Source of the DNA: Euphorbia lathyris | Lineage: Eukaryota > Streptophyta > Magnoliopsida > Malpighiales > Euphorbiaceae | DNA: 64,000 nucleotides | Direction of reading: 5' to 3' | Assembly (NCBI RefSeq): GCF_963576675.1 | Contig: NC_088911.1 | Span: 87,201,256 to 87,265,255, forward strand | In this document: one piece after another, positions 1 to 53,701 of the stretch | Layout: every line of letters begins with the position of its first letter | Numbering within the stretch: position 1 is the stretch's first letter | Notes under the pieces: generated by a model | Database searches by the model: none | What the model was told of the DNA's origin: nothing | What the model saw: the letters and a program-made list of their open reading frames with translations, nothing else | Translations under genes and position numbers: made by a program

Positions 1-179
1 ATCGGTGTTCATTTTCCCATTCGTGGGTGGCGACTCTTCCATATCTCCGAGCTCCGGTCCTGCCGAGCAGCTTGATTCCACGATTGGTTGCTTTCGGCGC
101 CAATCACCGCTTACGTCGCCATGAGGTTGTCCACCCCCCGGTCCGCTCGGGAGATTAGGCCGCGGCACCTCGTCTAACA
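1..179 (+). repeat. End of the Tat 5' LTR
   Basis: Ends in TCTAACA at 179, directly before the PBS. It differs from the 3' LTR copy (17276-17454) at five positions (98, 129, 147, 162, 172), all transitions, with no indels. About 2.8 kb of this LTR lies to the left of the window. Confidence 0.92.
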
Positions 180-181
180 AG

Positions 182-199
182 TGGCGACTCTGTTGGGGA
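182..199 (+). other. Primer binding site (tRNA-Arg type)
   Basis: TGGCGACTCTGTTGGGGA lies two bases after the LTR end. It starts with TGG, complementary to a tRNA CCA tail, and resembles the arginine-tRNA PBS described for Ogre/Tat elements. The tRNA assignment is from memory of that family and was not aligned. Confidence 0.75.
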
Positions 200-2124
200 A
201 GCTAGAAATTTGATTCCGGAAGGCGTGTATTAAGCCCTTAACGGGGACGGATCGTTTTACTTCTTTTCGTATGCATTCATGTGCATTATTGCAAACCCTT
301 TGGGTAATTTCCACGAAACCTCTAGCGAGAGTCCATTCGTCGCTCGAAAGAGGCTAGTGTAAGTTCCCCCTTACAGTAAGGCGCCAGAGGGTCCCCATCC
401 ATTCGTTAGGGGCGAATCTGTGCGGTCCTGTGAGGTCCCGCGGTCAGCCGTGTCAGTATATAGTAGCCTTAGAAGTTTCCATAGGATTACCCATTACTAT
501 TTTTGATGTGATAAATGAATCGGTTCGTGTTTTCAAACCGCCATGATACGTGTCTAATCCTAAAGTATGTAAAGAAAATGAGACGATGCGTTAATATATA
601 CTTATGAATCGACATACTAATTACCCTAAAAACATCGAAACAATTTGAACTAAAGACGACTTAGTTATCTCGTACGAATGAACATGTGTGACCCGCCTTG
701 TCCCTTTCGGTGTCCCGACGAAGGCACGTGTTCAGGAAATATGTTATGACGTAAGCACGTATTAGTATGTATCGGTTCGGTGTTAAGGATAGTTACATTT
801 CGATACAAACGACTATATTAACAGTAGCCGTTATTCACATTCTTTAGATAAATTGGAATAAAACGAGATCACGACGAAACGAAAACGAAGAACATTTCTG
901 TCTTGAATGACCCTGTCGTAACGTAAAAAGTTTCGCACAAGTAGCCCGTCCCTTCCGAATAAAAGACGAGCTTTTACGTTATGCCTCGTGTCGTTCTTAA
1001 GAGAAATGGATGTGTCCGCAAAGGTGACTAAGAAAATAAAAGAAAAGAAAAATGAACTAATCGACCAAAATCATTCCGAGACTACGATATATATCAATCC
1101 CGAGGGTAGTTAAAGAAAATAAACCAATGTCGTTGTATACGTGCCTCGGACGAGTGTATACCCCGTTTAAAATCTCGAAGCCGAATTAAGCCAAACCATA
1201 TAATTGCGCCATATGGACGAGACTGCGGGTTTTGACTAACGACTCGATCATTTCGACCGTTACCAAAACTGCAAGAAATATGGCCCGATATACGTGTTTG
1301 CTTAAATTCGCGCCTAAAGGAAAGAAAACGGTGGTATCCTCGCTTCGAACAAACACGCGATTTAACGAAAGGTGGGTTTTCTATAACCACACTAAGATGA
1401 TATATCCCGTAGGATTGAGAAGAACAACGAACTGTTGCTAGCCGAAAGGTTACCGTGCGCTCAAAATAAGACTCGCCGTCTTTTCACGTAGCTAAAATGA
1501 GCAAACGGATCCTCGACGCTAAGAACAAACGCGTTACACGATGAGTCTGTTCCCTAAAATAAAATCCAAAAGTGATTCCATCACTAAATAAACACGTGGT
1601 TACGTCTCTCGATAGATCTAAAAGATCCCGTTGTGATACAAAAATCGAGACACGAACCCACGCGAACAAAAGGGAACGAATCATTGACAATAACGAACGA
1701 TTGGACTAGAAGAATAACTCGTACCACGTCTAAAAACTGAGATGCGCTCAAAGGGAGTCAAAACCCGAATTAATGCGTCTCGCGAAAGGACAAAAGACGA
1801 GTTATTCCGAAAGGACAATCCGCTTGGTCGATATCTTAGTCACTGAACGTTGGTACGTCAAAACGAACTGTGTTGTATGGTGAATGATTTATTTTTCCTC
1901 AATAATCGACGGCATCACGCGTCCCCTGGACCGCAATGTGAGCCCCAAACCAAAATCCTAGAAAAGAGACCTGGACCAACGAGTGTGTGGAGGAATAAGG
2001 GTGGAAGAGAGATGTTGTGATACGTGTAATTAGACTAACGTTTGTTCTTCTTATCTTATATATCCGTAAAATAAATAAACGCACACACCACGAATCATGC
2101 ATATAAAATCATGCATACATACTA
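200..2124 (+). other. Tat leader between PBS and gag, no gene recognised
   Basis: About 1.9 kb with only short, unrelated reading frames on both strands (longest 98 codons). Some Ogre elements carry an extra ORF here. I see no continuous frame or known motif, so this is a long untranslated leader or a decayed ORF. Confidence 0.6.
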
Positions 2125-4185
2125 ATGGATACCGTTCGCGCAGACGTCATCATTAAGCGGTTGTGGTTTCGCGAGAGTAATCGGCTTGTCAGACAGTTTG
2201 ATCAGCTACGAGTAGACAGTTCAGAATCAGTAGTTGTGGCTTCTGAATCATCTTCGTCTGGGTATACTCAGTCTTCCGTCAGTATGTCTGCGATCGATGA
2301 GAAAGTGGCTGAATTGGAGAATTCTGTGAACAATATCAATGATCAGCTGGCCGTGATCTTGGCCCAGCTAGCTGAGTTAGCACTGAAGGACAACAAGAGT
2401 GGTAGTAAGCGTGCTGAGAATGAGGTGAACGATGGTCCTCGCTTTGGGAATGAGGAGGATTATCAGGATTATATCCGAAAACAGTTAGAGAAAGAGAAAG
2501 CTAATGAAGAGGAGTGGAGGCAACACATCACACAGGAAGTGCAGGACTTGCGTGGAGGAAGTTCCGGAAGTCAGGACTTCTATAACTTGAAGAATTGTTT
2601 GTCGGCAACAGCTTTGCCTTTGAAATTCTGGCTCCCTGACATGAAAAAGTTCGATGGAACGGGAGATCCCACCGCTCACATGAATCAGTATGTTGCTGTG
2701 ATGAAGCACACGATCCTGACTGAAGATCAAGTCCTAGGGCTGTTTAACACCTACCTAGAGGGGGCTGCCCTCACATGGTTCCATGCATTGCCGATGGTGA
2801 CAAAGAGGGATTGGAAGGAGTTAGCGAAGTCATTTATCGCTCAGTATAGCTTTAACACCATGCTGGAGGTCACTTTGAAAGAGCTAGAGAGCACTAAGCA
2901 ACAGGCTGGGGAATCCTTTTCCGATTTTGTGAAAAGATGGAGGGCTAAGGCCGCAGTGATGAAACAAAAGCCGCTCGAGCAGGATCAGATCCGAATGGTG
3001 GTTGGCAACACGTTGCCGTATATCAAGAATGAGTTGCGGTATATGCCATTTACTGATTTCAATCAGATGTATAGTTGTGCCTTGACTGTTGAAGGGGATG
3101 GGGAGCCAAAGAAAGCTTATACCAAGTGGACGAAGTCTGGGTATAGTGCCAGAGGGCCTAGTGCGAGTACAGAATCCGCAGCAGTGAAAGTGGTTGATCT
3201 TAATGCTATTGAAAAGAGGCGGTTCGCCAAGTTCGATCAGACCTACGCAAAAGTTTTCGAGCGTCTGCAGAAAAAGGGATTGTTGAAAGCCCTTACCCCG
3301 TATAACAAAGCTCAACCTACTCCGCAGATACAGGCTAGAGGGTATTGTGAATTCCATAGCAGTTATGGGCATACAATTGAGAATTGTGAGAGGCTGAAAC
3401 ACGAAATCCAGGATTTAATCGAGGAGAAAAAGATAGCTGATCCTTCGTCAGCGAACCCTTCCACTAGGCATAATCCATTGCCTAATCATAGGGTGAGCAT
3501 GATCGGAGTTGGCTTGACAGAATGTGTAGTGATGGAATCCTTCGAGGAGAACGTAGAGGAGTTGTTGGACTCCGATGAGAAGAATAATATGGGAAATGGT
3601 CTGTATGTGTCCTTCCTTGGTGAAGAACAAGAGGATGAACTAATGGATGAAGGGTCGGACGGTGGAGCACCGTATGATGAAGATAGTGCCGAAGAGACCG
3701 GGGAAGGGTCGTCTCGGACTATTGTGCCAGAATTGGGTCTGTTTAGTGGTGGAGAAAACCCCGAGGTGCACTTGCGTGAATATATGCGCGATATGTTTGT
3801 CGAATCCTTCGGAGTAGATGAAATTGCCCAGTGGTTCCACCATTCACTGGTAGGCGAGCCTTTGGAATGGTTCCACTCATTACCCGACTCTTGCAAGCAT
3901 GATTGGGATCAATTATCAAATTTATTCTTAGAAAAGTACCAAAGAGCCGAGGACAGGGCCGCAGAGCGCTTCGCAATGCAGATTGGACCTATCAAGCGTC
4001 CGCTACCGAGGGTTAGCAAATATAATGGCAATAAGGACCCTATGGAGCACCTTCACTTCTACTTGTCGGCTATGGCGCCTTTGGGTTTTAAAGAGGAAGA
4101 GATCACTAGCTTGTTTTGCAATTCGTTAATGGGTGAACCGTTAATGTGGTACATGTCGTTGCCAATGTATGTCAAGACCGATTAG
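2125..4185 (+). CDS. gag: Tat Gag polyprotein, first part, ending at an in-frame TAG
   Basis: Structural Gag that packages element RNA in cytoplasmic particles. In the 686 residues, 55-85 form a likely coiled coil. Residues 165-325 are the retrotransposon Gag/capsid domain (FDGTGDPTAHM, LEGAALTWFHALP, then a second half to about 325). Residues 408-421 form a cysteine/histidine knuckle (CEFH, GH, C). After the knuckle come two further capsid-like modules, about 535-605 and 627-686, with an acidic linker (about 470-530) before them. Each keeps the pattern G-x-x-[DN]-P, H-[LM], L-x-G-E-P-L-x-W. The TAG at 4183-4185 falls where the other modules have Trp, and the same frame continues at once (4192-6363). 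It is either a nonsense mutation or a readthrough point. The ATG at 2125 is the first of this long frame. Confidence 0.85.
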   Translation: MDTVRADVIIKRLWFRESNRLVRQFDQLRVDSSESVVVASESSSSGYTQSSVSMSAIDEKVAELENSVNNINDQLAVILAQLAELALKDNKSGSKRAENEVNDGPRFGNEEDYQDYIRKQLEKEKANEEEWRQHITQEVQDLRGGSSGSQDFYNLKNCLSATALPLKFWLPDMKKFDGTGDPTAHMNQYVAVMKHTILTEDQVLGLFNTYLEGAALTWFHALPMVTKRDWKELAKSFIAQYSFNTMLEVTLKELESTKQQAGESFSDFVKRWRAKAAVMKQKPLEQDQIRMVVGNTLPYIKNELRYMPFTDFNQMYSCALTVEGDGEPKKAYTKWTKSGYSARGPSASTESAAVKVVDLNAIEKRRFAKFDQTYAKVFERLQKKGLLKALTPYNKAQPTPQIQARGYCEFHSSYGHTIENCERLKHEIQDLIEEKKIADPSSANPSTRHNPLPNHRVSMIGVGLTECVVMESFEENVEELLDSDEKNNMGNGLYVSFLGEEQEDELMDEGSDGGAPYDEDSAEETGEGSSRTIVPELGLFSGGENPEVHLREYMRDMFVESFGVDEIAQWFHHSLVGEPLEWFHSLPDSCKHDWDQLSNLFLEKYQRAEDRAAERFAMQIGPIKRPLPRVSKYNGNKDPMEHLHFYLSAMAPLGFKEEEITSLFCNSLMGEPLMWYMSLPMYVKTD

Positions 4186-4191
4186 GCAGCA

Positions 4192-6363
4192 ATGACGAAG
4201 AGATTTATCAAGGAGTATACAGTATGGATGCTAGCAGAGCAAACCCCTGATTCTCCGTCTTACCAAACACCTGATGCGGTGTTAGCAATGCCTAGGTATG
4301 GTGGATACCAGGATCCTGTGGAGCACGCGAGGTTATTCCGCAATCATATGTATGACGCCGGATTTCCGCAATGTGAGTTGCATGAACATTTTTCGGAAAC
4401 CTTGATGGGTGAAGCCTTATTGTGGCATCAAGGCCTATCAGAGGAGGAAATGGGTCATTGGGTACCGCTCAGGAGTGCCTTTGTGGCAAGATATGAGATG
4501 TATGTTCCATGGACGGGATCCCTGGAGGATCTGGATAGGATCAGGCAGTTCCCCGAGGAACCATTTGTGGACTATGCTAGGAGGTGGAGGCACCGTTATG
4601 AGAAGTGTCATGAAACAATGAGCGATAAGGTGCAGCTTATGTGCATACAACGAGGTGCTATTCCGTTGGCCGCCAGAAGGATGAGCAGAGTGTCCCTCTG
4701 GGATTATGATGAGTTGATAGGTTGGGCCTTGTATGGATCGGCGGATCCCTTTTACTTGAATCCGAATGTTCCTCACGTCATGGATTTAATGGTTGTGGAC
4801 ATTTGGGAGAGTTCTTCGGACGAGGAAGATGCCAATCAGAGGGTTCCTATTAACATTTGGGATGAATCGGATGATGAGCCAGAAATCGCCGTCATGACAA
4901 GGTCAGGGCGAGTGGCCGAGGGGAAGGCACCTATGATAGAAACAGAGATTGGAGAAGGGTCGGCTCCTAAGCCCGATGACCAAGTTCTTGAGCAGTTGAA
5001 GAAGACGCAAGCTAAGTCCACAGTCTGGGAAGTCTTATGCCATTCTAAGTACCATCGTGAGAACCTGATGAAAGAGTTGCAGAATCTGGTTATTTCCACC
5101 GATACTGAGCCGGCAGCGCTAGTGGGAGCAATTATGGCCCGAAAGAAGGCTGAAATCACATTTACTGACGAGGATCTCCCAGAAGAGGGGAAGGCTCACA
5201 ATAAGCCTTTGTATATCCGAGCGAAAATCAACGGAAAGAAGACTAGATGTGTGATGGTCGATGATGGATCGGCTATTAATGTTTGTCCGTTGAAACTCTT
5301 GTCGAAGTTGGGAGTGGAGAGGGGAAACTTGACAGCCTCTGAACCTGTGATTAGAGCATATGATGATAGCCGTAGGCATATTGAAGGAGTCTTTAAGGCC
5401 AAGTTGAAAGGGGGGCCGCATGAAGAAGAAACTGAGTTCACTGTGCTGGATATACCGGTAACCTTTGCTGTACTTTTGGGACACCCTTGGTTCCATAAGC
5501 TGGGAGGTGTGCCCTCCACGCTCCACCAAATGATTAAATTCCCCTTCGGGGAGGAGATAGTGACAATTAGAGCTGAGAAATTGAGCTCGGTGGCAGCATT
5601 GGGAATTGAGCCTCAACTTTTCTCCGGATTCCAAGTCTCCGGGATTTACGAATCAAGCATGACCACCGACGTGGTGAAGATGATGAAGGGAGGTTTCATC
5701 CCAGGAATGGGCTTAGGAGCACACCATCAGGGGTTGCCAGAATTTCCGGATTTTAAGAGTCAGAAAACCTGGAGGGGTTTGGGATATGAGCAGGGAGGTC
5801 CATCCAACGCAAGTGGCGAAGGAAAAGTGGGCTTGAGGAAGTACTTCGTGAACGAGGGGCATGGAAAGGCATATTCAGGGACCCCCGAGGCATGGATTAG
5901 CGCCGAAGGAAAGATTCTGCCGAGGTTCGAAATCTTCAATGATGTTGCCGACTGGGGCAAAGGAAAGGCGAGCTGCTTTGTCGAGGAGATTATGGTGCTA
6001 GACTTGAATGCCGAGGAGCAAGTCATCACCATTGAAGCAACTGTGGGAGCGGTGGACGAGCCCAATACCTCCAAGGTTCATGAGGAGCCCGAGAACCCTG
6101 ATGATGAAAATTGTATTACCGCTTTGTTTGAATCAGATGATGTAATCACCCATGCTATCAATGAAATGAATTCTGATTTTGCTTACTTGCTTGATGTTGA
6201 TCATGATCATTCCATGCATTCTCATTCATATAACATGCCTACATTTGAAATCAATGCAATAGAAATGTCAACTTTCAATCTTGGTACGGATGAAAATCCT
6301 AAACTTATACAAATTGCTCAAGCATTAACTATTGAAGAGAGAAAAAAAAATTTGAGAGAATAA
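4192..6363 (+). CDS. Tat Gag continuation, fourth capsid-like module, aspartic protease and G-patch
   Basis: Same frame as the upstream Gag ORF; the first ATG after the stop is probably not a real start. Residues 32-100 form a fourth capsid-like module (YGGYQDPVEHARLF, LMGEALLWHQ), followed by a Gag-like second half to about 180. Residues 340-450 are the aspartic protease, with catalytic VDDGS at 356-360 and the flap-side LLGHPW at about 428-433. Residues 498-535 look like a G-patch (GGFIPGMGLGAHHQGL, then RGLGY), a glycine-rich RNA-binding module also known next to some retroviral proteases. The frame ends at TAA 6361-6363, after a run of nine A's at 6342-6350. The RT frame begins just downstream in the -1 register. 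Confidence 0.82.
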   Translation: MTKRFIKEYTVWMLAEQTPDSPSYQTPDAVLAMPRYGGYQDPVEHARLFRNHMYDAGFPQCELHEHFSETLMGEALLWHQGLSEEEMGHWVPLRSAFVARYEMYVPWTGSLEDLDRIRQFPEEPFVDYARRWRHRYEKCHETMSDKVQLMCIQRGAIPLAARRMSRVSLWDYDELIGWALYGSADPFYLNPNVPHVMDLMVVDIWESSSDEEDANQRVPINIWDESDDEPEIAVMTRSGRVAEGKAPMIETEIGEGSAPKPDDQVLEQLKKTQAKSTVWEVLCHSKYHRENLMKELQNLVISTDTEPAALVGAIMARKKAEITFTDEDLPEEGKAHNKPLYIRAKINGKKTRCVMVDDGSAINVCPLKLLSKLGVERGNLTASEPVIRAYDDSRRHIEGVFKAKLKGGPHEEETEFTVLDIPVTFAVLLGHPWFHKLGGVPSTLHQMIKFPFGEEIVTIRAEKLSSVAALGIEPQLFSGFQVSGIYESSMTTDVVKMMKGGFIPGMGLGAHHQGLPEFPDFKSQKTWRGLGYEQGGPSNASGEGKVGLRKYFVNEGHGKAYSGTPEAWISAEGKILPRFEIFNDVADWGKGKASCFVEEIMVLDLNAEEQVITIEATVGAVDEPNTSKVHEEPENPDDENCITALFESDDVITHAINEMNSDFAYLLDVDHDHSMHSHSYNMPTFEINAIEMSTFNLGTDENPKLIQIAQALTIEERKKNLRE

Positions 6364-6404
6364 TTAAAAAATACGAAATTGTATTCGCTTGGACATACGA
6401 AGAC

Positions 6405-7433
6405 ATGCCTGGAATTGATCAATCTATCGTAACTCATCGCATTCCAACTTATCCTGAAGCAAAGCCCGTAAAGCAGAAGCTCCGACGTATGAGACCCGAA
6501 TGGGCAGATAAGATCAGGGAGGAGGTGAAGAAGCAGTTAGAAGCAGGATTCATCGAAGTGATTGACTATCCCCCTTGGGTCGCAAATGTGGTACCAATTG
6601 CGAAAAAGGACGGCAAAGTGAGGATGTGCGTTGATTACAGAGATCTTAACAAGGCATGCCCCAAGGATGAGTTCGCATTGCCTCACATCGACGTATTAAT
6701 CGACAGTGCAGCGTCAAGTGTATTACACACGAATGTGGATGGTTTCATGGGCTACATGCAAGTCCAGATGGCCGAAAAGCACAAAGCAAAAACCTCGTTC
6801 ACAACTGAGTGGGGGACATACTGTTACAGAGTGATGCCGTTTGGTTTGAAGAATGCCGGGGCAACTTACCAGCGAATGGCTACAGCACTGTTCCATGATA
6901 TGATACACAAGGAGGTAGAAGTCTACGTGGACGATATGATGGTCAAATCAGAGACAAGAGAAGGGCATTTTACCGCGCTCGAGAAGTTTTTGGCCCGAAT
7001 TGCAGAATTCAAGCTAAGGTTAAACCCGAAGAAGTGCTTTTTCGGTGTTTCGTCGGGGAAAATCTTAGGCTATGTAATCGGAAATAAGGGAATCGAGGTG
7101 GATCCTGATAAGGTGAAGGCTATACAGGAGATGCCGGCGTCGAGAAATGAGAAGGAAGTGAGAGGGTTTCTGGGGCAGGTTCAGTATATCAGTCGGTTCA
7201 TAGCAAGACTCACCGCAATCTGCAAGCCAATCTTTAAGTTGCTAAGGAAAGACCAACCCGCTGTTTGGAATGATAAGTGTCAGCAAGCTTTGGACAGCGT
7301 CCGGAGCTATTTGTCTAATCCGCCAGTGCTGAGACCGCCTAAACTGGGAAAGCCGCTTCTCCTCTACGTAGCAATTGAGGAGCGATGGCTCAAGAGGGAG
7401 ACACAGGTGTGGAGCACGCGGTGTATTATTTGA
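6405..7433 (+). CDS. pol: Tat reverse transcriptase
   Basis: RNA-dependent DNA polymerase that copies element RNA. The recognisable frame begins upstream of the ATG, from about 6363 (EIVFAWTYEDMPG). It contains the Ty3/gypsy RT blocks in order: KQLEAGFIEV, VRMCVDYRDLNKACPKDEF, KTSFTTEWGTYCYRVMPFGL, the catalytic YVDD in EVYVDDMMVKS, then the connection/thumb (LGYVIGNKGIEVDPDK, VRGFLGQVQYISRFI). The start of the RT-linked RNase H (LLLYVAIEE) is reached before the frame is lost around 7375-7390. The true reading continues in the -1 register at 7385. A few codons are missing at the junction, so this is a small deletion rather than a programmed shift. Confidence 0.88.
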   Translation: MPGIDQSIVTHRIPTYPEAKPVKQKLRRMRPEWADKIREEVKKQLEAGFIEVIDYPPWVANVVPIAKKDGKVRMCVDYRDLNKACPKDEFALPHIDVLIDSAASSVLHTNVDGFMGYMQVQMAEKHKAKTSFTTEWGTYCYRVMPFGLKNAGATYQRMATALFHDMIHKEVEVYVDDMMVKSETREGHFTALEKFLARIAEFKLRLNPKKCFFGVSSGKILGYVIGNKGIEVDPDKVKAIQEMPASRNEKEVRGFLGQVQYISRFIARLTAICKPIFKLLRKDQPAVWNDKCQQALDSVRSYLSNPPVLRPPKLGKPLLLYVAIEERWLKRETQVWSTRCII

Positions 7434-8632
7434 GTAAGAAATTCCTGGAGTACGAGCTCAAGTACAACATGATCGAAAAGACATGTGTGGCAGTGGTATG
7501 GTTGACAAAGAAACTGCGGCTTTATTTCCAATCGTATAAAGTGATCATTATTTCTCGGATGGACCCCGTGAAGTATCTATACCGAACTCCATCCTTGACG
7601 GGGAAGTTAGCCAGATGGTTGTTGCTTTTATCCGAGTTTGACATTGAATATGTGACAAAGAAGGTTATCAAAGGGAGGGTCGTGGCAGAATTTCTGGCCA
7701 ACCAACCTCTGAATGTAGAGGAAGAAGAGATAAGCTATGATTTCCCCGATGAACACTTGAACGCAATCGAAGTTATACCGTGGAAAATGTTCTTCGATGG
7801 AGCAGTTAATTCGAATGGAGCCGGAGTAGGAGTACTACTTACCTCACCGGAAGGAGAAAGGATCCTGATGGCCAAGAAGTTATCCTTCCCTCTCACTAAT
7901 AATATGGCCGAATATGAAGCATGCATTTATGGTTTAGAGTCATTAGCGGCACTGGGAGCATCATATGTCGAAATTTGGGGTGACTCCAAGTTGATCATCA
8001 AACAGGCACAAGGAAACTGGGAAGTGAGGGAAGAAAGGCTACGTCCATATCTAGATCAGCTAGAAGGGTTGGCACAAAGATTCAAGGAGTGTCGTTTCTA
8101 TCACATTCCTCAAGCGCAGAACCAGGCGGCGGATGCTTTGGCCACTTTGGTGTCAGTTTGGGACAACCCCCGGAACCTTGCCTCGAAACCGTTGGTATTA
8201 AGGAGATCTCACAAACCATGCTATGAGGACGTAATGCTGTTAGAGGCAGATGAAAAACCGTGGTATTTCGATATCGTGAACTTCATGAAAAATGGAACAT
8301 ATCCGGCAGAGTCAGAACCGAGGGATCAAGCTGTGATTAGAAGGTTAGCTCGTCAGTTCATCATCCACGACGACTTACTTTACAAAAGGCACATCGATGG
8401 GTTACAGCTAAGGTGCTTAGATGCGGGAGAAGCCTGCGAGGCGATGGAATCGGTGCATTCAGGAATTTGCGGGGCCCATATGGGAGGAGTGGTGTTACCA
8501 AAGAAAATCATAAGGCAAGGCTTCTATTGGCTCACCATGGAAAGAGATTGTAACGAGTATGCGAAGAAATGTCACGATTGTCAAATCCACGGCGATTGCA
8601 GTCATCTTCCGGCCACGGAATTACATGTGTGA
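7385..8632 (+). CDS. pol: Tat RNase H, second (archaeal-type) RNase H and integrase zinc domain
   Basis: Residues 1-110 hold the remainder of the RT-linked RNase H (GVEHAVYYLSKKF, LTGKLARWLLLLSEF). About 132-265 form a second RNase H with all four acidic positions: D in FFDGAVNSNGAG, E in MAEYEA, D in IWGDSKLI, D in AADALA. This extra domain is diagnostic of the Tat lineage. About 345-405 hold the integrase HHCC zinc domain (HSGICGAHMGG, GFYW, CHDCQ). A TGA at 8630-8632 interrupts the protein between the zinc and catalytic domains, and the frame continues unchanged after it. Confidence 0.87.
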   Translation: MAQEGDTGVEHAVYYLSKKFLEYELKYNMIEKTCVAVVWLTKKLRLYFQSYKVIIISRMDPVKYLYRTPSLTGKLARWLLLLSEFDIEYVTKKVIKGRVVAEFLANQPLNVEEEEISYDFPDEHLNAIEVIPWKMFFDGAVNSNGAGVGVLLTSPEGERILMAKKLSFPLTNNMAEYEACIYGLESLAALGASYVEIWGDSKLIIKQAQGNWEVREERLRPYLDQLEGLAQRFKECRFYHIPQAQNQAADALATLVSVWDNPRNLASKPLVLRRSHKPCYEDVMLLEADEKPWYFDIVNFMKNGTYPAESEPRDQAVIRRLARQFIIHDDLLYKRHIDGLQLRCLDAGEACEAMESVHSGICGAHMGGVVLPKKIIRQGFYWLTMERDCNEYAKKCHDCQIHGDCSHLPATELHV

Positions 8633-9535
8633 GCACCTATTTGGCCATTCGCTGCCTGGGGCACTGACATCATCGGCGAAGTAAGGCCTAACGCTTCAAA
8701 TGGACATAAGTTTATTACTGTCGCCATCGATTATTTCACCAAGTGGGTACAAGCAGAGTCGTTTAGCAAACTGGGATCCAAGCAGATGAGAAAGTTCATT
8801 GAAAAACACTTGATCACCAGGTTTGGAGTGCCTCATCACATGATTACGGATAATGGGGTCCAGTTTCAGGGGGAAGTAAGGAATCTGTTCCGAGAATATG
8901 GCATTGAACATCACAGATCTTCTCCATACCGTCCACAAGCTAATGGGGCAGTAGAAGCAGCTAATAAGAACCTTAAAAGGATTCTCGTAAAGACGGTGGA
9001 ATCACATCGGAACTGGCATGAGCACCTCCCACTCGCGTTGTGGGCTTATCGCATGACAATCAGAACCTCGACTGGGGCAACGCCATTCTCCTTGGTATAC
9101 GAAACAGAAGCAGTCCTGCCAATTGAGATCGAAAAGCGATCGTTGAGAATCGCAGTGGAGACAGAAATTCCCGAGGCGGAATGGGCGAAGAAACGATGTG
9201 AGCAGTTGGCTCTAGTTGACGAAAAAAGGATGGAAGCGCTTTACCATGTACAGTTATATCAAAGAAGGATGGCTCGGGCTTTCAATAAAAAGGTCAAGAC
9301 CAGTCCTATCAAAGAAGGAGATTTGGTGCTGAAACAGATCCGTGTGACGCACACCGACCCAAGGGGGAAGTTCAGGCCTAACTGGGAAGGACCATTCGTC
9401 GTGAAGAAGATACTAAGCAAAGGAGCGGTGAAGTTAACCACAATGGACGGCATGGAATTCTCCGAACCTACCAACCTGGATAGGCTTAAGAAATACTTTT
9501 TCATAAAAAAACAAAAAAAAAAAAATTCCCGATAG
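8633..9535 (+). CDS. pol: Tat integrase catalytic core and C-terminal domain
   Basis: Continues in frame after the TGA at 8630. The catalytic triad is present: D in WGTDIIGEV, D in MITDNGVQFQGE, and E in YRPQANGAVEAANK. The C-terminal part contains the GPF/Y-like segment (PNWEGPFVVKKIL). It ends in a lysine-rich tail coded by A-runs, with the stop at 9533-9535 inside the first of three hairpins. The first ATG of this stretch (8786) lies inside the core, so it is not a genuine start; the piece belongs to one broken Pol protein. Confidence 0.87.
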   Translation, partial: APIWPFAAWGTDIIGEVRPNASNGHKFITVAIDYFTKWVQAESFSKLGSKQMRKFIEKHLITRFGVPHHMITDNGVQFQGEVRNLFREYGIEHHRSSPYRPQANGAVEAANKNLKRILVKTVESHRNWHEHLPLALWAYRMTIRTSTGATPFSLVYETEAVLPIEIEKRSLRIAVETEIPEAEWAKKRCEQLALVDEKRMEALYHVQLYQRRMARAFNKKVKTSPIKEGDLVLKQIRVTHTDPRGKFRPNWEGPFVVKKILSKGAVKLTTMDGMEFSEPTNLDRLKKYFFIKKQKKKNSR

Positions 9536-9974: not shown

Positions 9975-12900
9975 CTAATACGGAGGGAAGTCCCAATAGT
10001 CCTCAAAATCTCTTAGGTGTGATGCCCGCTCCGCAGATAGTGCCTCCTCGGCAGAACGCGCTCTCTCATCAGAAACTCGCGCTCTCTCATCAGAGGCGCG
10101 TGCTCTCTCATCAGCAGCTCGTGCTCTCTCCCTTGCAGCAAGGCGCCTGATCGACTCATCACGCGCCCTCTCCTCGACGGCAATGTGACCCTCAGTCTCC
10201 CGTCGCATCATCCCTGACCAGTGGTCATTTCTCTCCTGATACACCTGACCAACCCGGGCTTCGGCCTCCCGCACCAACTCGCTCTGCCTCCGCTCGTGGG
10301 CATGCAGATCACTCTACAGAAAAAGAAGAAAAAAAGAAGAACAGATAAAAAGCAGCATAGGCAAAAACATAAATCATACATACATGCATACATTCCACTA
10401 CACTAAAGTAAAGTAATGATACATACTAGGTGATCGGTGCAGCGCAAGCTGAGGCGATCTCGTAGGTAACCAGACAGCCCCACGTAATCCGTACAAGTCT
10501 CCCTCGTGGTCAGAGAAGCGTCTGAAGGATCAAATGGGACCCTCGAGGAGAAGATAGGAGGAGCCGCCTCGAATCCCGCATAAGCTGCCCCGGACTCGTC
10601 ATAGCAAATCGTGGCATAATCTCTCCCGTAGTCTGGTAGGGGCACGCCTAGGGAAGACCTCTCCGGTCGGGCAGCGCTGGAGGACTCGCCGACGTAGTAG
10701 GGCTGCTCGCACACAGGCGTCTGAGCCCAAGTACCGTCAAAGAAATCAGATAAATGGGCACTCCTCCAGGACCCCTCCTGCAAAAAAAAAAAACACAATA
10801 AAAACCCCTAAACATCTCATGAATGAAAGGTAAAATAAGAAGGGGATGGAACCACTTACCGGGACCTCCTCTTGACCGAAGACTGCCGCGACAGCCTCCC
10901 TCGAAAATACATCTGCCACCGGATCCACCTCTATCGCTGCCGCCGGGGCATCCCTCGCGCTCAGCAGAGTAGATAAGTAAGGCTCACGACCCCCGGCGTG
11001 AATCCACACCACTCTACCAACAAACCGACGGGTCAAGTCCCGACGAACGGTCGATAAGGGCATGGTCCGCACCGCGAACACAAAGACGGGGATCTCACCC
11101 GGTGTCCAGTGAGCGTCCCTAACTCTAGTGATGCCTCGATCCCCTAAATACCATGCCCGCACGCAGGGGCCGGTGAGCACACACTGCTGCTCCTGGATCA
11201 TCGATACATATGTATAATCGGGGCCGAAGTCGAGGTCGTCCCACCTGAACTTAATCTAAAAATGCACAAAGAGAAAGTCAGAAAGACTCCAACAAAAACC
11301 GAGCATGATTAGGCAAAATCTACCTGTGTGAGGGTCAGCGAGTCGATCCGATCTAGGAGTCGTGGCACCGTCCGACTCCTTTCGGCGCTCAAGTCAAAAT
11401 CCCTCCATCGAGTCATGAAAGACGGCCTCGGTACTCTCGGTCGAGATCGAGACCGGCGGGGAAGGATGTGCCTCTCATACGCCCACACCTGCGGTAAAAA
11501 CAAGGACTAGGAGTGTGAAAAAACGCGAAGAAGATAAGGCGGGCAAGTCAAGAAGGCGTCACGTACCAGCAGAGCAAAGGTGTAACCACCGAAATCCTTG
11601 CGCTTCCTGCAAGTCAGATCCAAAAACTTGTAGAGAAAGGCTAAGCCTGCCCCCGCCCAATCGTAGGAAGCCGCTGCATCCAGATCGTTGAGCGCCTGAA
11701 TGAGACCTGCGTGTACCTTTCCGCCCTTCGTGCGGAAAATCGTCTCACTCAGAGTATACACTAAGAAGCTGCGAACCGCCAAGTCGGTATCGTCTGTCTC
11801 GCAGAAATCTCGCCGACTCAAGAGGCTCGCGGTGGAAATAAACTTCACTGGAGTAGATTTGGCGCAAAGACGAACTCCCGGTCCAATCAAGGCAGCGAGC
11901 CTAGCAAGGTCGACCCGTGGTCGCATCATTTCGAAATGGAAAGGAACGGGAGTGTTGCTCCCTCGCAACCCTGTCAGCAGTGAGAAATCTCTGGGCGAGA
12001 TGGTCATCTCCCCAAAAGAAAGGTGGAAGGTGTGGGTCGAGTCAACCCACCGCTCACATAAGGCCCGCAGGCCGAAACGATCGCATACCCCGTTGGTGCG
12101 GGGCAACGCTGCAATAAAAGGCTCGAAGCCCAACTCACGCACGCGGGCTCTCGCCGCGGCACCTAGCCTATCGTACCACGAGTGAATCTCGGCGGTGGTC
12201 CCCGAAATCTCAATGAACTAAAAAGAACAAGACAAGAAAATTTAAATACAGCTCCTAAAGCATGCAATTGTTAAGAACGTGTTAAGACTAGGTATTCTTT
12301 CATAGAGACATCCGGTCAGTTAGGACCAATTTTCTGTAAAAATCTCTCATGTAGGGTCATTCACGTAGGGTTTAGTCAATTCTTTAATCCACCCTCGTCT
12401 GCGGGGATAAGGAGCATAGATTAGGTTTTACTGTTTACGTGCATTAGCTAAGTTTTTACTATTCACGTTTTTACTATTCACGTGCGTTAGTTAAGTTTTT
12501 ACTATTCATGTGCACTATTTTACGTTTTTACTATTCACGTGCACTATTCGCGTTTTCACTATTCACGTTTTACTATTCACGTGCATTAGCTAAGTTTTTA
12601 CTATTCACGTACACTATTCACGTTTTTACTATTCACGTGCACTATTCACTATTCACGTTGTTTGTACCGTTAGCATGCATAAAATTGTAGTGTCACTATT
12701 CACATGCATATAACGCGCATTCTTACAAAAATAAACAAGTGCTACTTGTAAGTAAAGGAATTCACGTTTTCTAGCTAAAGTCCTCTAAAGCAGTCTAAGG
12801 GTTAGCATGCAAATCATGTTCGAATAGGAATGCTAAAGCCTAGAGTTCGAATCAAATAAAAGTGAGAAATTACTTACATCGTTGCAGCGTGTCCTGCTCA

Positions 12901-12994
12901 AATGCGTCGTAGGGTCGTGGAAAGTATCAACTCTATCCAGGTTTACGTAAACCTCGTCCATGCCTCTAGTGCCATCCCATTCATCTAAATCCAT
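9975..12994 (-). CDS. Antisense six-exon plant-mobile-domain (PMD) protein carried by the Tat element
   Basis: Predicted minus-strand exons are 12994-12878, 12217-11567, 11488-11324, 11255-10860, 10777-10427 and 10313-9975. Each intron has GT..AG ends (donors GTAAGT, GTACGT, GTAGAT, GTAAGT, GTATGT), every junction is phase 0, and the join gives 672 codons without a stop. The ATG at 12994 is the first after an in-frame TAG and lies about 80 bases from a TATA-like box. Residues about 40-400 match the plant mobile domain (aminotransferase-like), with LSFGEMTISPRDFSLLTGL near 105-123 and VWAYERH opening exon 3. PMD proteins of the MAIN/MAIL1 type act in transposon silencing and genome stability; related domains occur in Mutator-like and Ty3/gypsy elements. 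The C-terminus has heptads (ADERARA, SDERARV), probably a coiled coil. Role here unknown. Confidence 0.8.
12410..12680. repeat. Degenerate TTTTTACTATTCACGTGCA repeats in intron 1 of the antisense gene
   Basis: About ten irregular copies of TACTATTCACGT with variable spacers (GCATTAGCTAAG, GCACTA). Four copies contain the palindrome CACGTG (12479, 12537, 12578, 12634). The repeats lie wholly inside the 660-base first intron (12877-12218). Confidence 0.7.
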
Positions 12995-13072
12995 CCCGAG
13001 AATAATCCAAATTGAAGTCTAGTGAGAGAAAGAAGAGAGAAAAGGTGTGGGGTTGAAATGAAACCCCACCAC

Positions 13073-13079
13073 CTTATAG
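13073..13079 (-). promoter_or_regulatory. TATA-like box of the antisense PMD gene
   Basis: CTATAAG on the minus strand, about 80 bases before the ATG at 12994. It is followed by a pyrimidine-rich leader (TTTTCTCTCTTCTTTCTCTC), as is common in plant 5' UTRs. Inferred from position and motif only. Confidence 0.5.
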
Positions 13080-13080
13080 A

Positions 13081-13429
13081 GGAAAAGGGAATGGCATTCC
13101 CGTAAATAGTGAAAAAAGTACGATTTGACATAAAAGTAAAAAGTAAATAATTAATTACTAGGTGCACAGACCTCCGATTTGCAGTCCGTTTCAGCCTGCA
13201 TTTCTCCCAGACAGCGACCAACATTGTCAAGATATGAACTCCAGACAACAGTCAATTTTTACGGAACAGTGACACCAGTCAAAATACAGACAACAGTCAA
13301 CAGAAAAATAATCGTTAGTCTATATCATTCCAGACTAAAATACGTCCCCATTAAACCTCTGAGATGCTAGCTCCAGTAAGAAAATACAGACAACAGTGTT
13401 GTAGAAGAATCCAGAGATAATCCCCGCTT
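13081..13429. other. Upstream region of the antisense gene with short repeats
   Basis: No coding frame. Contains repeated ACAGACAACAGT blocks (about 13285 and 13384) and related CAGTCAA words. It lies between the antisense promoter and the 39-bp array. Confidence 0.5.
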
Positions 13430-14258
13430 TTGAGCCATCTTACTCACGGTCGCAGACCGGAGTTGCTTTTGAGCCATCTTACTCACGGCCGTAGACCGGA
13501 GTTGCTTTTGAGCCATTTGACTCAAGGTCGCAGACCTGAGTTGCTTTTGAGCCATTTTACCCGCGGTCGTGGACCAGGGTCGCTTTTGAGCCATCTTACC
13601 TGCGGTCATAGACCAGGGTCGCTTTTGAGCCATCTTACTCTCGGTCGTAGACCAGAGTTGCTTTTGAGCCATCTTACTCTCGGTCGTAGACCAGAGTTGC
13701 TTTTGAGCCATCTGACTCACGGTCGTAGACCGGAGTTGCTTTTGAGCCATCTGACTCAAGGTCGCAGACCTGAGTTGCTTTTGAGCCATTGTACCCGCGG
13801 TCGTGGACCAGGGTCGCTTTTGAGCCATCTTACCCGCGGTCGTGGACCAGGGTCGCTTTTGAGCCATCTTACTCTCGGTCGTAGACCAGGGTCGCTTTTG
13901 AGCCATCTTACTCTCGGTCGTAGACCAGAGTCGCTTTTGAGCCATTTTACTCTCGGTCGTAGACCAGAGTTGCTTTTGAGCCATCTGACTCACGGTCGCA
14001 GACCGGAGTTGCTTTTGAGCCATTTTACCCGCGGTCGTGGACCAGGGTCGCTTTTGAGCCATCTTGCTCTCGGTCGTAGACCAGAGTTGCTTTTGAGCCA
14101 TCTTACTCAAGGTCGCAGACCTGAGTTGCTTTTGAGCCATTTTACCCGCGGTCGTGGACCAGGGTCGTTTTTGAGCCATCTTACTCGCGGTCGCGGACCT
14201 GAGTTGCTTTTGAGCCATCCCGTTAGCGGTCGTACACCGAAATTGCTTTTGAGCCATA
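13430..14258. repeat. 39-bp tandem array, about 21 copies
   Basis: The unit is GAGCCATCTTACTCACGGTC followed by GCAGACCGGAGTTGCTTTT. Variants differ at a few positions and recur in a non-random order. Because 39 is a multiple of three and the unit has no stops, long frames are open on both strands: 13 residues such as MAQKQLRSATVSK repeated on minus, SHLTHGRRPELLL on plus. Tandem arrays between pol and the 3' LTR are known in Ogre/Tat elements, where they can seed satellites. I regard the frames as by-products of the repeat. Confidence 0.92.
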
Positions 14259-14474
14259 ACCAACGTACGCTAGATTCCGAGAAAAGAACATTCATCGATG
14301 GCCATTTCAAAGGTGACGATGGAAGGAATCAGAGGACGACACCGGAACGCGCAGCGCGAAGGTCAAGTATGTTCCCTCCTACTCTTTACGTGTCTTTTAC
14401 TTTTATATGTTTTACATTGCATGTGTTGCGTTAGCAAAAAACGTTTTCGAAACACACACGTCACTGTCAAAATA
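14259..14474 (+). other. Unique sequence before the PPT
   Basis: No recognised feature. It lies between the tandem array and the polypurine tract. Confidence 0.4.
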
Positions 14475-14490
14475 GAAAAGTAGGGGCAAC
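14475..14490 (+). other. Polypurine tract of the Tat element
   Basis: GAAAAGTAGGGGCAAC directly precedes the 3' LTR, in the position where plus-strand DNA synthesis is primed. Confidence 0.7.
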
Positions 14491-14847
14491 TGTAGACACC
14501 GACTCGGAGGACCTGTGACGAAAACCTGAAAACAAGACGGTTGAAGCGATTGATTCCGAAAGTTTTGAAAAAAATATATAAAAGATAACAAGCGAAGGAA
14601 AATCGGCGGCACGGGACGTGCGCTCGACGTCCGTCGGACGCACCGCGAGTGGCACGCTCTCGACGTCCGAGCAATGCCCGGGTCCGGTGGCACGGTGCGC
14701 ACTCTCGTGGGCCGCTGAGCGCACGCGTCCGGTAGCGCGAAGCGCGCGTTCGGCGGCCGCGACGTGTGAGTGTCCGGTGGCGCGGAACGCGCGCTCGACG
14801 GCCGCGGGGTGCGCACGCCCGACGGCGCGAGGCACACCCCGAGGGTC

Positions 14848-15085
14848 GTCGGGCGGGCGCCCAACCACGTCGGGCGAACGCCCGACCACCGTTGGGCGAA
14901 CGCCCGACGAAGGTCGGGCGCGGGCGCCCAACCTTGCGTTGGGCGCTCGCCCAACGCCGTTGGGCGCTCGCCCAACAAATGTTGGGTGGCCGCCCAACAA
15001 GGTTGGGCGGTAGCCCAACACAAGGTTGGGCGGCCGCCCAACCCCAATGGGCGACACCCAATTTCCTTTGGGCGTCGCCCATTGG
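14848..15085. repeat. Array of about 11 GTTGGGCG/CGCCCAAC palindromes in the LTR
   Basis: Successive units pair GT[TC]GGGCG with CGCCC[AG]AC around a 2-4 base centre, for example GTTGGGCGCTCGCCCAAC twice near 14937-14978. Spacing is roughly 20-25 bases. The array ends 17 bases before the LTR TATA box. Confidence 0.85.
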
Positions 15086-15102
15086 TCCGAGGACCCGTTT
15101 GC

Positions 15103-15110
15103 CTATAAAA
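15103..15110 (+). promoter_or_regulatory. TATA box of the Tat LTR
   Basis: CTATAAAA in GCCTATAAAAGGCACGGATC, at the GC-rich to AT-rich transition inside the LTR. It is the best TATA match in the LTR and would place transcription start about 30 bases downstream. Confidence 0.65.
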
Positions 15111-17455
15111 GGCACGGATCCCCATGCAAAAGAGGGAGAGGGGGATTTTTTTTGGATAGCTTTCTCACTCTAAACATTTTTAGAGAGAGAGTGATTTTTT
15201 TTGAGAAAAATATTTTTTTTCTCAAAAATTCCAAATTTCCTAAAGTTCAATTTTTACTAAATTTTCATTAAAAACGGAAGATCGTGGTTCGTGGAATCAA
15301 TCGGCTTCGACTGTCAGATACCGAATTTAAGGTATTATCCGAGGACTAGACTCTCTTTTATTTTATTTTATTTATCTTCCTCTCCTATTTATTTTTATGC
15401 TATAGTTTTTATTGATTTAGTTATTTATTTATGTTGTCACATTTTATTTAATTAGCGTATTTATTTAATTTTCATCTCGCGTTGAATAAAATTCGGTTTT
15501 GTTTTAAAATAAAAAACCTCGTTTTGATATCCGAATACGAACCGTGATCCGATAAAAAGGTAGTTCGGGTATCGAAAACGTTGTAATTATAAGTTTTTAA
15601 TTTAAAAGAAATTTCTAAATAATGTTTTGAAATAAAAAACGTCGTTTAGGAACTTCCGTTTTCGACTATGATCCATCTTGGGTAGTTCGGAAATCCAAAA
15701 CGATTGAATTAGATCTAATTTAAAGCTTTTGAATAAATCTGGAAACATTTAGGGGTGCTGCTGTAATTTACCTATTTTGTCACTAAAGGCTGTTTACCGA
15801 CGGATTTTCCGTCGGTAAATCTCCCAAAACGTAAAAAATGCCATTTCAGTCCCTTTTTCCTAACTTTTAAGCTTTTAATCTTTAATATATATATGTATAA
15901 TTATGTAATATATGTTTTTCAAATTATTTTGGACCTTTAGCATATATAATTATTTGATGATATTTGTATACCATTTTTTATACTATTTTCTAAATATAAG
16001 TATAATTATGTATATGTATTTCCTTTTTATTAATTTAGGCTATGTTTTAAATGATAGTTATTTGATATTTTGAGAAATAATTGATAGACATTAGTATATG
16101 TTATTTTTGGTATTTAAAACTATATTAGTTATGTATATATATATAGTGTTGGGATATTTGGGTTATTTTGTTGATTATTGAATGAAATTACTTTTGGGTA
16201 AATGTCATTTTCTTATTCATAAGATTTACTTATTATTTTCACATTTTTTTGTATAAATGTGTTGTACCTATTATTTTCATATACATATAGTTTCTTTTGT
16301 GTTAACTCTTACTTTCATATCTTCTTTTTTGATTTAAATGTATATATATATATATATATATGTCTAAATTATTTTCTTCATTCTTTTGGCCCATTCATGA
16401 GTCCATGTTCCAAATAAGTATTATTTGAGTGTGAATATTAGTTTAAAGGGGTTTATTATTGTAATTGTAATAAGTAGAGAATCCATTAAGGAAAAAGGGG
16501 GAAAATAAATCACAAAAAGAGTTTTCAACTTAATTATTTAAACTAAAAGGTTTTTTAGAGATTCTTAATGTAAATAAATAGTGTTTTCTTGACATTTCAA
16601 ATCGTTTCTTAAAACATCACGCTTTAAAACCTTAGTCCGTTCCAAACGACAGATTAAACGAGCCTTGTAATTAAAATCGTTTTCATTGTAAATAATAGAG
16701 TTTTGAATCGTTTTCTTAAATGATTTGTACAAAATAAAATTGACTTGTATGTTTAACCACATTTTCTCATCAAAGGTTTTTATCTCAATGTTTTCAAACT
16801 CTCGAGTTGTTCCAACGGCGATTCGGGTAAACTTCATCAAACGGGGTTTTAAAACGCACCTAGATCGTTCCAACGACGATTAAGGTGCGAACCATGTAAA
16901 TAAACTCGTTTTGGGGGAACAAGTTAGTGTAGAATAAACACACGACATGACTTTTAAATACGGTTGTAAATAAACCACTTCTTTCTCCCCCCTCTCTGTG
17001 TATGTATAACATAAATGGGTGATTCTTTACTAATATGGCTTTTCAATAATATATGCTCAAAACGGTTTCAAAAAAAGAGAAAGAAAAGGGTTTCAAATGA
17101 ATTTTAAACTTAAAGAAGTATACGATTAGTCCGTTATCGCCTAACATGCTGAGTAGGAGGCCGGTGGTTCATAACCGGGCGATGTCGGGGTGCCTAGTAG
17201 CCTTTCTCCGGAAAGGAGCTAGCCTTCTCGGCTCGTACCTAAGTTTTCCGAACCCACACCGGTCTCCCGCAAAGGATCGGTGTTCATTTTCCCATTCGTG
17301 GGTGGCGACTCTTCCATATCTCCGAGCTCCGGTCCTGCCGAGCAGCTTGATTCCACGATTGGTTGCTTTCGGTGCCAATCACCGCTTACGTCGCCATGAG
17401 GTTATCCACCCCCCGGTCCGCCCGGGAGATTAGGCCACGGCACCTCATCTAACAA

Positions 17456-17707
17456 CAGTACACTCAGCAGAACAGTCAGTGTGACTGTTGTGGACAAAGA
17501 GGACACACTATAAATGTGTGTTTGTATGCTCAGCACCATCGTGCTGACCAAAAGAGGAAATACCCTCAAAGGGTAATCTTTTGTGACTATTGTGGTAAAG
17601 ATGGCCACACCATAAATGTATGCCGTCACAAAATAAAATATGATGTTTCACCTGTTTATGCTAACCAACGAGGACCCAAAAAGAATTGGGTACCTAAAGA
17701 TGAATAG
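17456..17707 (+). pseudogene. gag: C-terminal end of copia Gag with two CCHC zinc knuckles
   Basis: Starts directly at the Tat insertion point. Two CX2CX4HX4C knuckles are visible, CDCCGQRGHTINVC and CDYCGKDGHTINVC, followed by a basic stretch (GPKKNWVPKDE). An in-frame TAG at 17705-17707 separates it from the protease frame, which continues in the same register. Two knuckles in tandem and the HTINVC wording suit Sirevirus Gag, which binds element RNA. Confidence 0.82.
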
Positions 17708-51182: not shown

Positions 51183-51535
51183 TTTTTTTTTATAAAGAAT
51201 GTTTATGTAAATGGTGCACAATAGAGAAAAAAAACATTTGTTCGTTATAATAGTGTTTATAATTGATTCAATTTATTAATATAAGAGGTAAAATTGTTTT
51301 CACTGTCGTTATAGGTCAAATTGCACCATTTTAGACCTTATGCACCTTATTCCATTTTATTTATCTATTTTTATTGAAGTCATACATATTTTTACTGATA
51401 AAAAGAAAAAATTGTTATTATTTAATGCGATATTAATTTTTTTTTGTTATGAGTTAAAATAATTAATAATATATATATAAATAACTACAAAAACTACTGT
51501 AAACTAAACAACGAGAAAACCGGTCAAGAAAAGAC

Positions 51536-53668: not shown

Positions 53669-53701
53669 GGTATGGGCTTGTGTCTGTAGTTTTCCTTTCT
53701 G

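Follow-up and report, generated by a model that had tools for sequence, protein, structure and literature searches.

The window analysed here is a 64,000-nucleotide stretch of the Euphorbia lathyris genome (contig NC_088911.1, positions 87,201,256 to 87,265,255 of the forward strand). It includes a long terminal repeat (LTR) retrotransposon that carries, antisense to gag-pol, a gene for a protein with a PMD domain. We consider it likely that a Tat-lineage (Ogre-like) family of LTR retrotransposons carries this gene as a spliced antisense accessory. Six minus-strand exons spanning 12994-9975 are separated by five introns of 660, 78, 68, 82 and 113 nt, each in phase 0 with GT..AG edges, and the joined open reading frame (ORF) comprises 672 codons plus a stop. 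This model had been put forward in a sequence-only reading of the stretch and held when splice edges, phases and translation were rechecked. The parts of the gene are as follows.

12878..12994, minus strand: PMD exon 1, with ATG
12218..12877, minus strand: PMD intron 1, 660 nt (611-724 across 30 loci), with CGTGAATAGTAAAAA-type repeats
11567..12217, minus strand: PMD exon 2, with most of the Pfam match
11489..11566, minus strand: PMD intron 2, 78 nt; site common to host loci L006 and L007, absent from 10/10 other chosen PMD loci
11324..11488, minus strand: PMD exon 3, 55 codons; host counterpart 56 codons
11256..11323, minus strand: PMD intron 3, 68 nt; site common to host loci L006 and L007
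10860..11255, minus strand: PMD exon 4, from splice edges and translation
10778..10859, minus strand: PMD intron 4, 82 nt
10427..10777, minus strand: PMD exon 5, from splice edges and translation
10314..10426, minus strand: PMD intron 5, 113 nt
9975..10313, minus strand: PMD exon 6, helical tail and stop; helix from the model of the relative P0001

The real ORF is free of stops, and mononucleotide shuffling of the joined sequence (2000 runs) gave 25.0 stops on average and never fewer than 11. The assignment to PMD made in the same reading was confirmed by profile search: residues 90-315 match positions 21-242 of Pfam PMD (PF10536) with E=1.5e-26 and 93.9 bits (cut-off 34.9), and the match crosses junction 256|257 and extends beyond 311|312 with no large gap. 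No other Pfam family matched the joined protein at E<=1. Short repeats around CGTGAATAGTAAAAA were seen within intron 1 at 12426-12646.

The carrier element

The insertion is complete. It measures 20,133 bp, with LTRs of 2858 nt (5') and 2964 nt (3') and a purine tract before the 3' LTR, and the target site duplication ACAGT stands directly before TGTAGACAC, the start of the 5' LTR, and directly after the 3' LTR. The whole 5' LTR was recovered from 5.0 kb upstream of the window (piece L009, which also includes the first 200 bases of the window). Apart from the PMD gene, its features are:

1..179, plus strand: 3' end of the 5' LTR, which starts 2679 bases before the window (contig coordinate 87198577) and totals 2858 nt
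182..199, plus strand: candidate primer binding site TGGCGACTC, from sequence only
2107..6363, plus strand: gag-protease region, with gag domains, stop at 4183-4185 and a G-patch below cut-off; protease by eye
6336..9535, plus strand: reverse transcriptase (RT), RNase H (RH), second RNase H (aRH) and integrase (INT); frame change near 7379-7433, stop at 8630-8632
13347..14348 (edges approximate), no strand: tandem array with a 39-bp unit, lying between the PMD gene and the 3' LTR
14469..14490, plus strand: polypurine tract before the 3' LTR
14491..17454, plus strand: 3' LTR, 2964 nt
17455..17459, plus strand: target site duplication ACAGT; its other copy immediately precedes the 5' LTR (L009:2317-2321)

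Over 2855 aligned sites the two LTRs are separated by 50 transitions and 18 transversions (Kimura two-parameter distance 0.0243), which dates the insertion to 0.93 or 1.73 million years ago at rates of 1.3e-8 or 7e-9 per site per year. Gag-pol of the window copy is broken by in-frame stops at 4183-4185 and 8630-8632 and by frame changes near 6336-6363 and 7379-7433, in agreement with the three or more lesions claimed before. The integrase frame ends at codon 291 (from 8633) in 29 of the 30 loci considered below; the window copy is open to 9535. The candidate primer binding site has a putative likeness to tRNA-Arg.

The Ogre primer binding site is antisense to tRNA-Arg (PMC9289625). Pfam domains follow the order gag, G-patch (21.2 bits against a 22-bit cut-off), RT, RNase H, second RNase H and integrase. 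RT_RNaseH and RVT_3 lie in one piece, and a second RNase H of this kind marks the Tat lineage; from its place, RVT_3 is probably of the aRH type. It stands between RH and INT (RT_RNaseH 3-87, RVT_3 139-256, Integrase_H2C2 353-403), which is the arrangement of Ogre and Retand elements (PMC6317226). The second RNase H domain and the full structure of LTRs, polypurine tract and duplication thus bear out the placement of an antisense PMD in a Tat element. A PMD ORF that is reverse and 3' of pol points to Ogre, of which it is a frequent (57%) and not a strict feature, but the two-ORF organisation with a spacer is lacking here, since 28 nt are common to the stop-to-stop frames 4186-6363 and 6336-7433. 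For these two reasons the element appears best described as Tat-lineage and Ogre-like, not as a proven Ogre. Transposase_28 (PF04195), which characterizes the antisense ORF of Retand TRP28 elements, was not found; at E<=1 only PMD matched.

Two kinds of internal repeat were also observed. The gag polyprotein seemingly holds four successive capsid-like repeats within 2644-4600 on the plus strand (starts 2644, 3736, 4015 and 4291), five of whose six pairs match at E<=5e-12 in two-sequence BLASTP; the remaining pair does not match (E=1.0). Cut out singly, the first and fourth score above the Pfam gag cut-off and the second and third have no match; a literature search on tandem gag returned nothing relevant. 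The 39-bp (13-codon) array at 13347-14348, upstream of the PMD gene, has open frames of 300 and 337 codons on the two strands, which reach such lengths because 39 is divisible by 3 and are probably not coding.

Copies, splicing and selection on the joined frame

The E. lathyris genome was searched with window positions 9975-13250, and the best 40 of 2473 candidates were scored, giving 44 match rows. These represent the window itself, 36 other near-full copies, 3 loci in pieces or partial and 1 short extra piece. Each near-full copy covers at least 3186 of the 3276 query bases in a single match at 93-97% identity and is 3185-3335 bases long. A copy without any of the five introns would be shorter by 1.0 kb, and none of the 36 has lost all five. 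The earlier proposal that the introns are kept through retrotransposition is therefore upheld for 36/36 other near-full copies among the best-scored candidates, all at intron-containing length; an intronless copy could sit among the unscored ones. Across 30 loci (L019-L048, L019 being the window), a leader intron described below and introns 1-5 have GT/AG edges in 28-30 of 30 each, which at about 3% divergence is a weak test alone.

In two cases, L027/L026 (C5:7037820, 7054950) and L047/L035 (C1:58096523, 58113606), one PMD copy is followed by another on the same strand at a distance of 17.1 kb. The spacing is close to the length of the element minus one LTR (17.2 kb), and L026/L027 and L035/L047 are sisters in the tree, suggesting that the paired copies are tandem elements with a common LTR.

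Protein searches, which scored about 8,000 candidates each, returned 13 distinct relatives, all of them NCBI records from E. lathyris; other species with relatives are possible. In a 12-residue ungapped test, junctions 1 to 5 were continuous in 2, 6, 8, 11 and 9 of these 13 proteins. Those that fail are mostly without that part of the protein, and the others have a nearby gap or a different joining: P0001 has a 4-residue gap beside junction 3, P0004 retains 15 in-frame residues (first V, last Q) at intron 2, P0002 apparently reads into intron 3, P0008 and P0010 reach exon 3 from different donors, and foreign exons lead into exon 4 (P0009) and exon 5 (P0012, P0013).

Several of these records are fusions, in which a different gag, a Copia RT or an unknown 45-residue leader is joined to PMD exons (P0004/P0008/P0010, P0009 and P0012/P0013). 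P0012 and P0013, isoforms X1 and X2 on one contig, have a common leader and ends from two different PMD copies. It is as if PMD acceptors captured neighbouring transcripts.

P0001 and P0004 each fit an upstream leader exon spliced to one acceptor (intron end 13019), giving the following features.

13019..13158, minus strand: T-rich leader intron of 140 nt, in which a pyrimidine tract precedes AG and the TATA-like motif lies; from NCBI protein alignment
13159..13249, minus strand: leader exon as aligned to P0001 and P0004; 5' limit unsure, P0004 fitting a donor 13 nt further upstream
13072..13078, minus strand: TATAAGG, preceded by TC in the window copy and by TA in 29 other loci

A TATA-like box and a pyrimidine-rich leader had been noticed upstream of the gene. 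Both are present, the motif at 13078-13074 and then the pyrimidine-rich stretch, but according to the two E. lathyris proteins both lie inside the leader intron. The sequence TATATAAGG occurs in 29 of the 30 loci, the exception being the window copy, which reads TCTATAAGG. The motif may be a second promoter within the leader intron, as a candidate only. A sigma-70 scan of the leader was discarded as meaningless for a plant.

Selection was assessed in 29 copies including the window, which are the best-scoring relatives and not a random sample; L027 was dropped as a near-duplicate of L026. Integrase served for comparison over codons 1-290, codon 291 onward being excluded since 29 of 30 loci stop there. 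Neutral rates were derived from noncoding singletons of these same copies, so that noncoding singletons cannot serve as an independent control, unlike the noncoding shared and the wrong-frame values. CpG sites were removed in a second count because they are recurrent.

At all sites, PMD singletons comprise 219 nonsynonymous (N), 112 synonymous (S) and 18 stop changes, with an omega-like ratio of 0.95 (0.76-1.21), and shared variants comprise N 83, S 71 and 4 stops, with a ratio of 0.57 (0.42-0.77). Removal of CpG sites gave 1.08 (0.83-1.46) for singletons and 0.43 (0.28-0.66; N 40, S 41) for shared variants, and the two classes differ by Fisher's test (p=0.0008 without CpG, p=0.012 at all sites). 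The corresponding integrase ratios are 0.63 for singletons and 0.16 for shared variants at all sites, and 0.51 (0.34-0.82) and 0.11 (0.04-0.22) without CpG. Read in the wrong frames, shared PMD variants gave 1.05 (0.64-1.79) in frame +1 and 1.11 (0.70-1.87) in frame +2, and noncoding pseudo-codons gave 1.26, 0.99 and 0.90 for shared variants and 1.07, 0.90 and 0.78 for singletons. Since frame 0 is below 1 and the wrong frames and noncoding shared values are near 1, purifying selection among shared variants is specific to the frame of the joined PMD exons. This frame specificity also supports the exon model independently of RNA. A dN/dS-type comparison of the joined ORF with integrase, one of the checks named in the sequence-only reading, thus gave shared values of 0.43 and 0.11 over the 29 copies, not near 1.

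The same reading had seen a sign of selection in the contrast between an intact PMD frame and a broken gag-pol. We rejected that argument: at the rate of 4 lesions per 7.4 kb a stretch of 2.0 kb would be expected to carry 1.09, so that an intact PMD has P(0)=0.34, and counted per kb over the 29 copies PMD fares no better than integrase. In PMD there are 31 premature stops and 9 indels that shift the frame, with 7 copies intact and 0.68 lesions per kb per copy; integrase has 14 stops and 1 frameshift, with 16 copies intact and 0.59 lesions per kb per copy. Selection on the protein holds across the family (shared ratio 0.43, frame-specific) but not at the window locus (singletons across the copies 1.08). 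The pattern suggests that the PMD protein is selected while the family spreads and that constraint is relaxed mostly after insertion.

At PMD codon 175, a CGA to TGA stop occurs in 6 of 29 copies (L020, L021, L024, L038, L043 and L044). Inheritance from a transposing broken copy is disfavoured by the CGA to TGA change and by the scatter of these copies on the tree, and the stops are probably recurrent CpG decay. Radical/conservative amino-acid ratios computed from the protein sequences alone were uninformative, with radical fractions of 0.39-0.52 in 7 comparisons against a neutral 0.44-0.54.

Intron positions and the origin of the gene

A PF10536 search of the same genome gave 129 matches, the best 117 of 5425 candidates having been scored. 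Two of the matching loci, L006 and L007, which from resemblance we take to be MAIL-like host genes, have an intron after LTLLQ, a 56-codon exon beginning CWSYFH and an intron before V(E/D)W, in phase 0 with GT/AG edges. The element gene has an intron after TFALL, a 55-codon exon beginning VWAYER and an intron before IKFRW, so that its introns 2 and 3 stand at phase-0 positions matching those of L006 and L007. In ten comparison loci (L008 and L010-L018), hand-chosen from the 129 matches with genes and elements not sorted apart and edges not read base by base, the intron-2 site is uninterrupted in 10/10 and the intron-3 site or its vicinity is interrupted in 9/10, L015 excepted. In L001 no interruption falls within the PMD domain, and L001-L005 all have complete profile matches free of internal stops. 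The pol of the element family had no match at E<=1e-5 in the genomic pieces of the PMD loci then examined. Host L007 has a further intron before PMD (WDGQ|ERGVLRC), which is not alignable with element intron 1.

In a tree of the exon-2 region with 22 rows from this genome, the five transposable-element (TE) rows group together as a single clade (100/100), whose stem measures 2.57 changes per column. The host row nearest to this clade is L007, at a path of 3.19 changes per column; the long branches meet, so that placement among the other rows is unsure, and the rows of L003 and L004 are less than half filled. At such divergence, intron sites held in common indicate that element and host PMD descend from one ancestor that already had introns, by capture or by domestication, and that this ancestry is old. 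PMD-A clades are exclusively gypsy-borne and spread through the angiosperms, and Ikeda 2017 (PMC5418596) left the direction between gypsy and host open while leaning to gypsy-to-host domestication. The notion of a captured host gene, as worded in the sequence-only reading, is not supported, given this lean and the very long stem of the single TE clade. Tentatively, and with low confidence, we suggest that retroelements can carry multi-intron genes indefinitely in antisense, that two PMD introns of this family predate the split between gypsy PMDs and host MAIN/MAIL genes, and that the host silencing genes may have been domesticated, with their introns, directly from an antisense element gene of this kind.

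Proposed role and comparison with known systems

A working model for the family can be proposed. Genomic RNA would be transcribed from the 5' LTR, from the opposite strand to the PMD gene, and antisense-strand introns are no introns for genomic RNA. Because they read CT..AC there, they would stay unspliced and be copied intact into new insertions, while an internal antisense promoter would drive a spliced PMD mRNA. Its product, a PMD-plus-helical-tail protein, would act in trans in the nucleus, most likely on element transcription or silencing. In this account the window copy is a dead insertion, and nothing beyond ordinary chance has kept its PMD frame open. We think it rather probable that the protein regulates the element's own transcription or silencing, counter-silencing and self-restraint being inseparable here. 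MAIN and MAIL1 act in silencing (PMC5418596, PMC7156037, PMC9899485), counter-silencing by TE PMDs has already been proposed (PMC8616336), and in maize Grande an antisense gene is reported to have a promoter of its own and a product found in the nucleus (PMC7264820).

Several results weigh against this account. The gene is known here from its sequence alone, and the 'isoform' labels of the NCBI records suggest, but do not show, transcript support; alternative isoforms at NCBI are usually transcript-based. An AlphaFold model of P0001 has a mean pLDDT of 36.9 and fails except for the one predicted C-terminal helix, which leaves a nuclear role without structural support; P0001 also had no match among PDB sequences at E<=1 and none in IMG/VR. 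The PMD lesion rate is slightly above that of integrase (0.68 vs 0.59 per kb per copy), and constraint on PMD is the weaker (Fisher's test on shared variants, p=0.009 without CpG and 0.0003 at all sites). Integrase singletons also fall below 1 (0.63 at all sites, 0.51 without CpG), so singletons are not purely post-insertion, and shared non-CpG stops (3 in integrase, 1 in PMD) mean that some broken forms are common to copies. The Arabidopsis DOWN motif (printed once, as CATGCAGTTT) is nowhere matched exactly within the element, and with one mismatch it occurs there once, at 1266. With up to one mismatch the window holds 4 matches against 5.8 expected, and the sole exact match, at 35262, lies outside the element; the motif was accordingly rejected as an own-element target.

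Among the alternatives, restraint by the PMD protein of its own family (copy-number control or latency), instead of countering host silencing, is possible though doubtful. It would suit a constraint weaker than that on integrase, and in HTLV-1 Tax-dependent transcription is inhibited by HBZ, likewise the product of a spliced antisense gene (PMC1459196). That only the antisense RNA matters, through double-stranded RNA or transcriptional interference, is a possibility raised in PMC7264820, but constraint specific to frame 0 of the joined exons makes it very unlikely. Even less probable is that the element captured a host MAIL-type gene recently: the phase-0 sites do match two MAIL-like host genes and 10/10 other PMD loci are without intron 2, but the TE clade (100/100) has a stem of 2.57 and a nearest host path of 3.19, and PMD-A clades are gypsy-only and angiosperm-wide (PMC5418596). 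Least probable of all is domestication of PMD at the window locus by host-level selection after insertion, which would account for an intact frame beside about 4 gag-pol disruptions but meets a chance of intactness of about 0.34, neutral singletons across copies (1.08) and only 7/29 intact copies.

Beyond the element by about 12 kb, pieces of a host gene were seen at 29777-45094 on the plus strand; the first carries an Npa1 domain (URB1-type, ribosome biogenesis), that at 35945-39313 has no Pfam match, and we infer that they form one gene. LINE-like ORFs follow at 51503-57802 (plus strand), with an in-frame stop at 54689-54691 between two pieces and RT, zf-RVT and RNase H-like domains in the last.

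A spliced accessory gene, our preferred reading, can be set beside several known systems. An extra ORF with PMD (pfam10536) occurs in 57% of Ogre elements, and reverse 3' extra ORFs are one of the classes described (Neumann 2019, PMC6317226). The gene resembles these in encoding PMD and in being reverse and 3' of pol, but the passages of that paper available to us make no mention of an antisense gene with several introns, of intron sites in common with host genes or of selection acting on a joined ORF. The gypsy PMD-A1/A2 clades (Ikeda 2017, PMC5418596) are likewise very old, TE-borne and related to host MAIN/MAIL; 'intron', 'splic' and 'antisense' occur 0 times in the main text of that paper, whereas here two introns stand at shared positions. 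Antisense ORFs of Retand TRP28 elements (Vicient 2025, PMC11963269) are also accessory genes in a long region between pol and 3' LTR, and about half of those elements contain tandem arrays. They differ in their domain (PF04195) and LTRs (315-1,194 bp against 2.9 kb here), and 'intron' occurs 0 times in that paper, whereas the PMD gene has five. Host MAIN/MAIL genes (PMC7156037, PMC9899485) have the PMD domain and, in L006 and L007, the two phase-0 intron positions, but they are host genes of very diverged sequence (nearest path 3.19 changes per column). HTLV-1 HBZ (PMC1459196) is an alternatively spliced antisense gene in a provirus; its function is another, no PMD is claimed for it and its transcripts start in the 3' LTR.

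Searches of the open-licence PMC literature, judged mostly from their listings, brought up no description of introns in PMD or other antisense genes of plant LTR elements. PMD ORFs in Ogre are already known, and the host-shared multi-intron structure and the frame test were not found in the literature searched. Both extra-ORF surveys set length thresholds (at least 250 codons in PMC6317226, 600 bp in PMC11963269), by which intron-bearing antisense genes would be undercounted. For the PMD systems compared here, the question of gypsy-PMD-first or host-PMD-first (Ikeda 2017) becomes a matter of intron-position phylogeny, for which existing genomes suffice, and the E. lathyris gene offers a concrete protein for testing control of element silencing.

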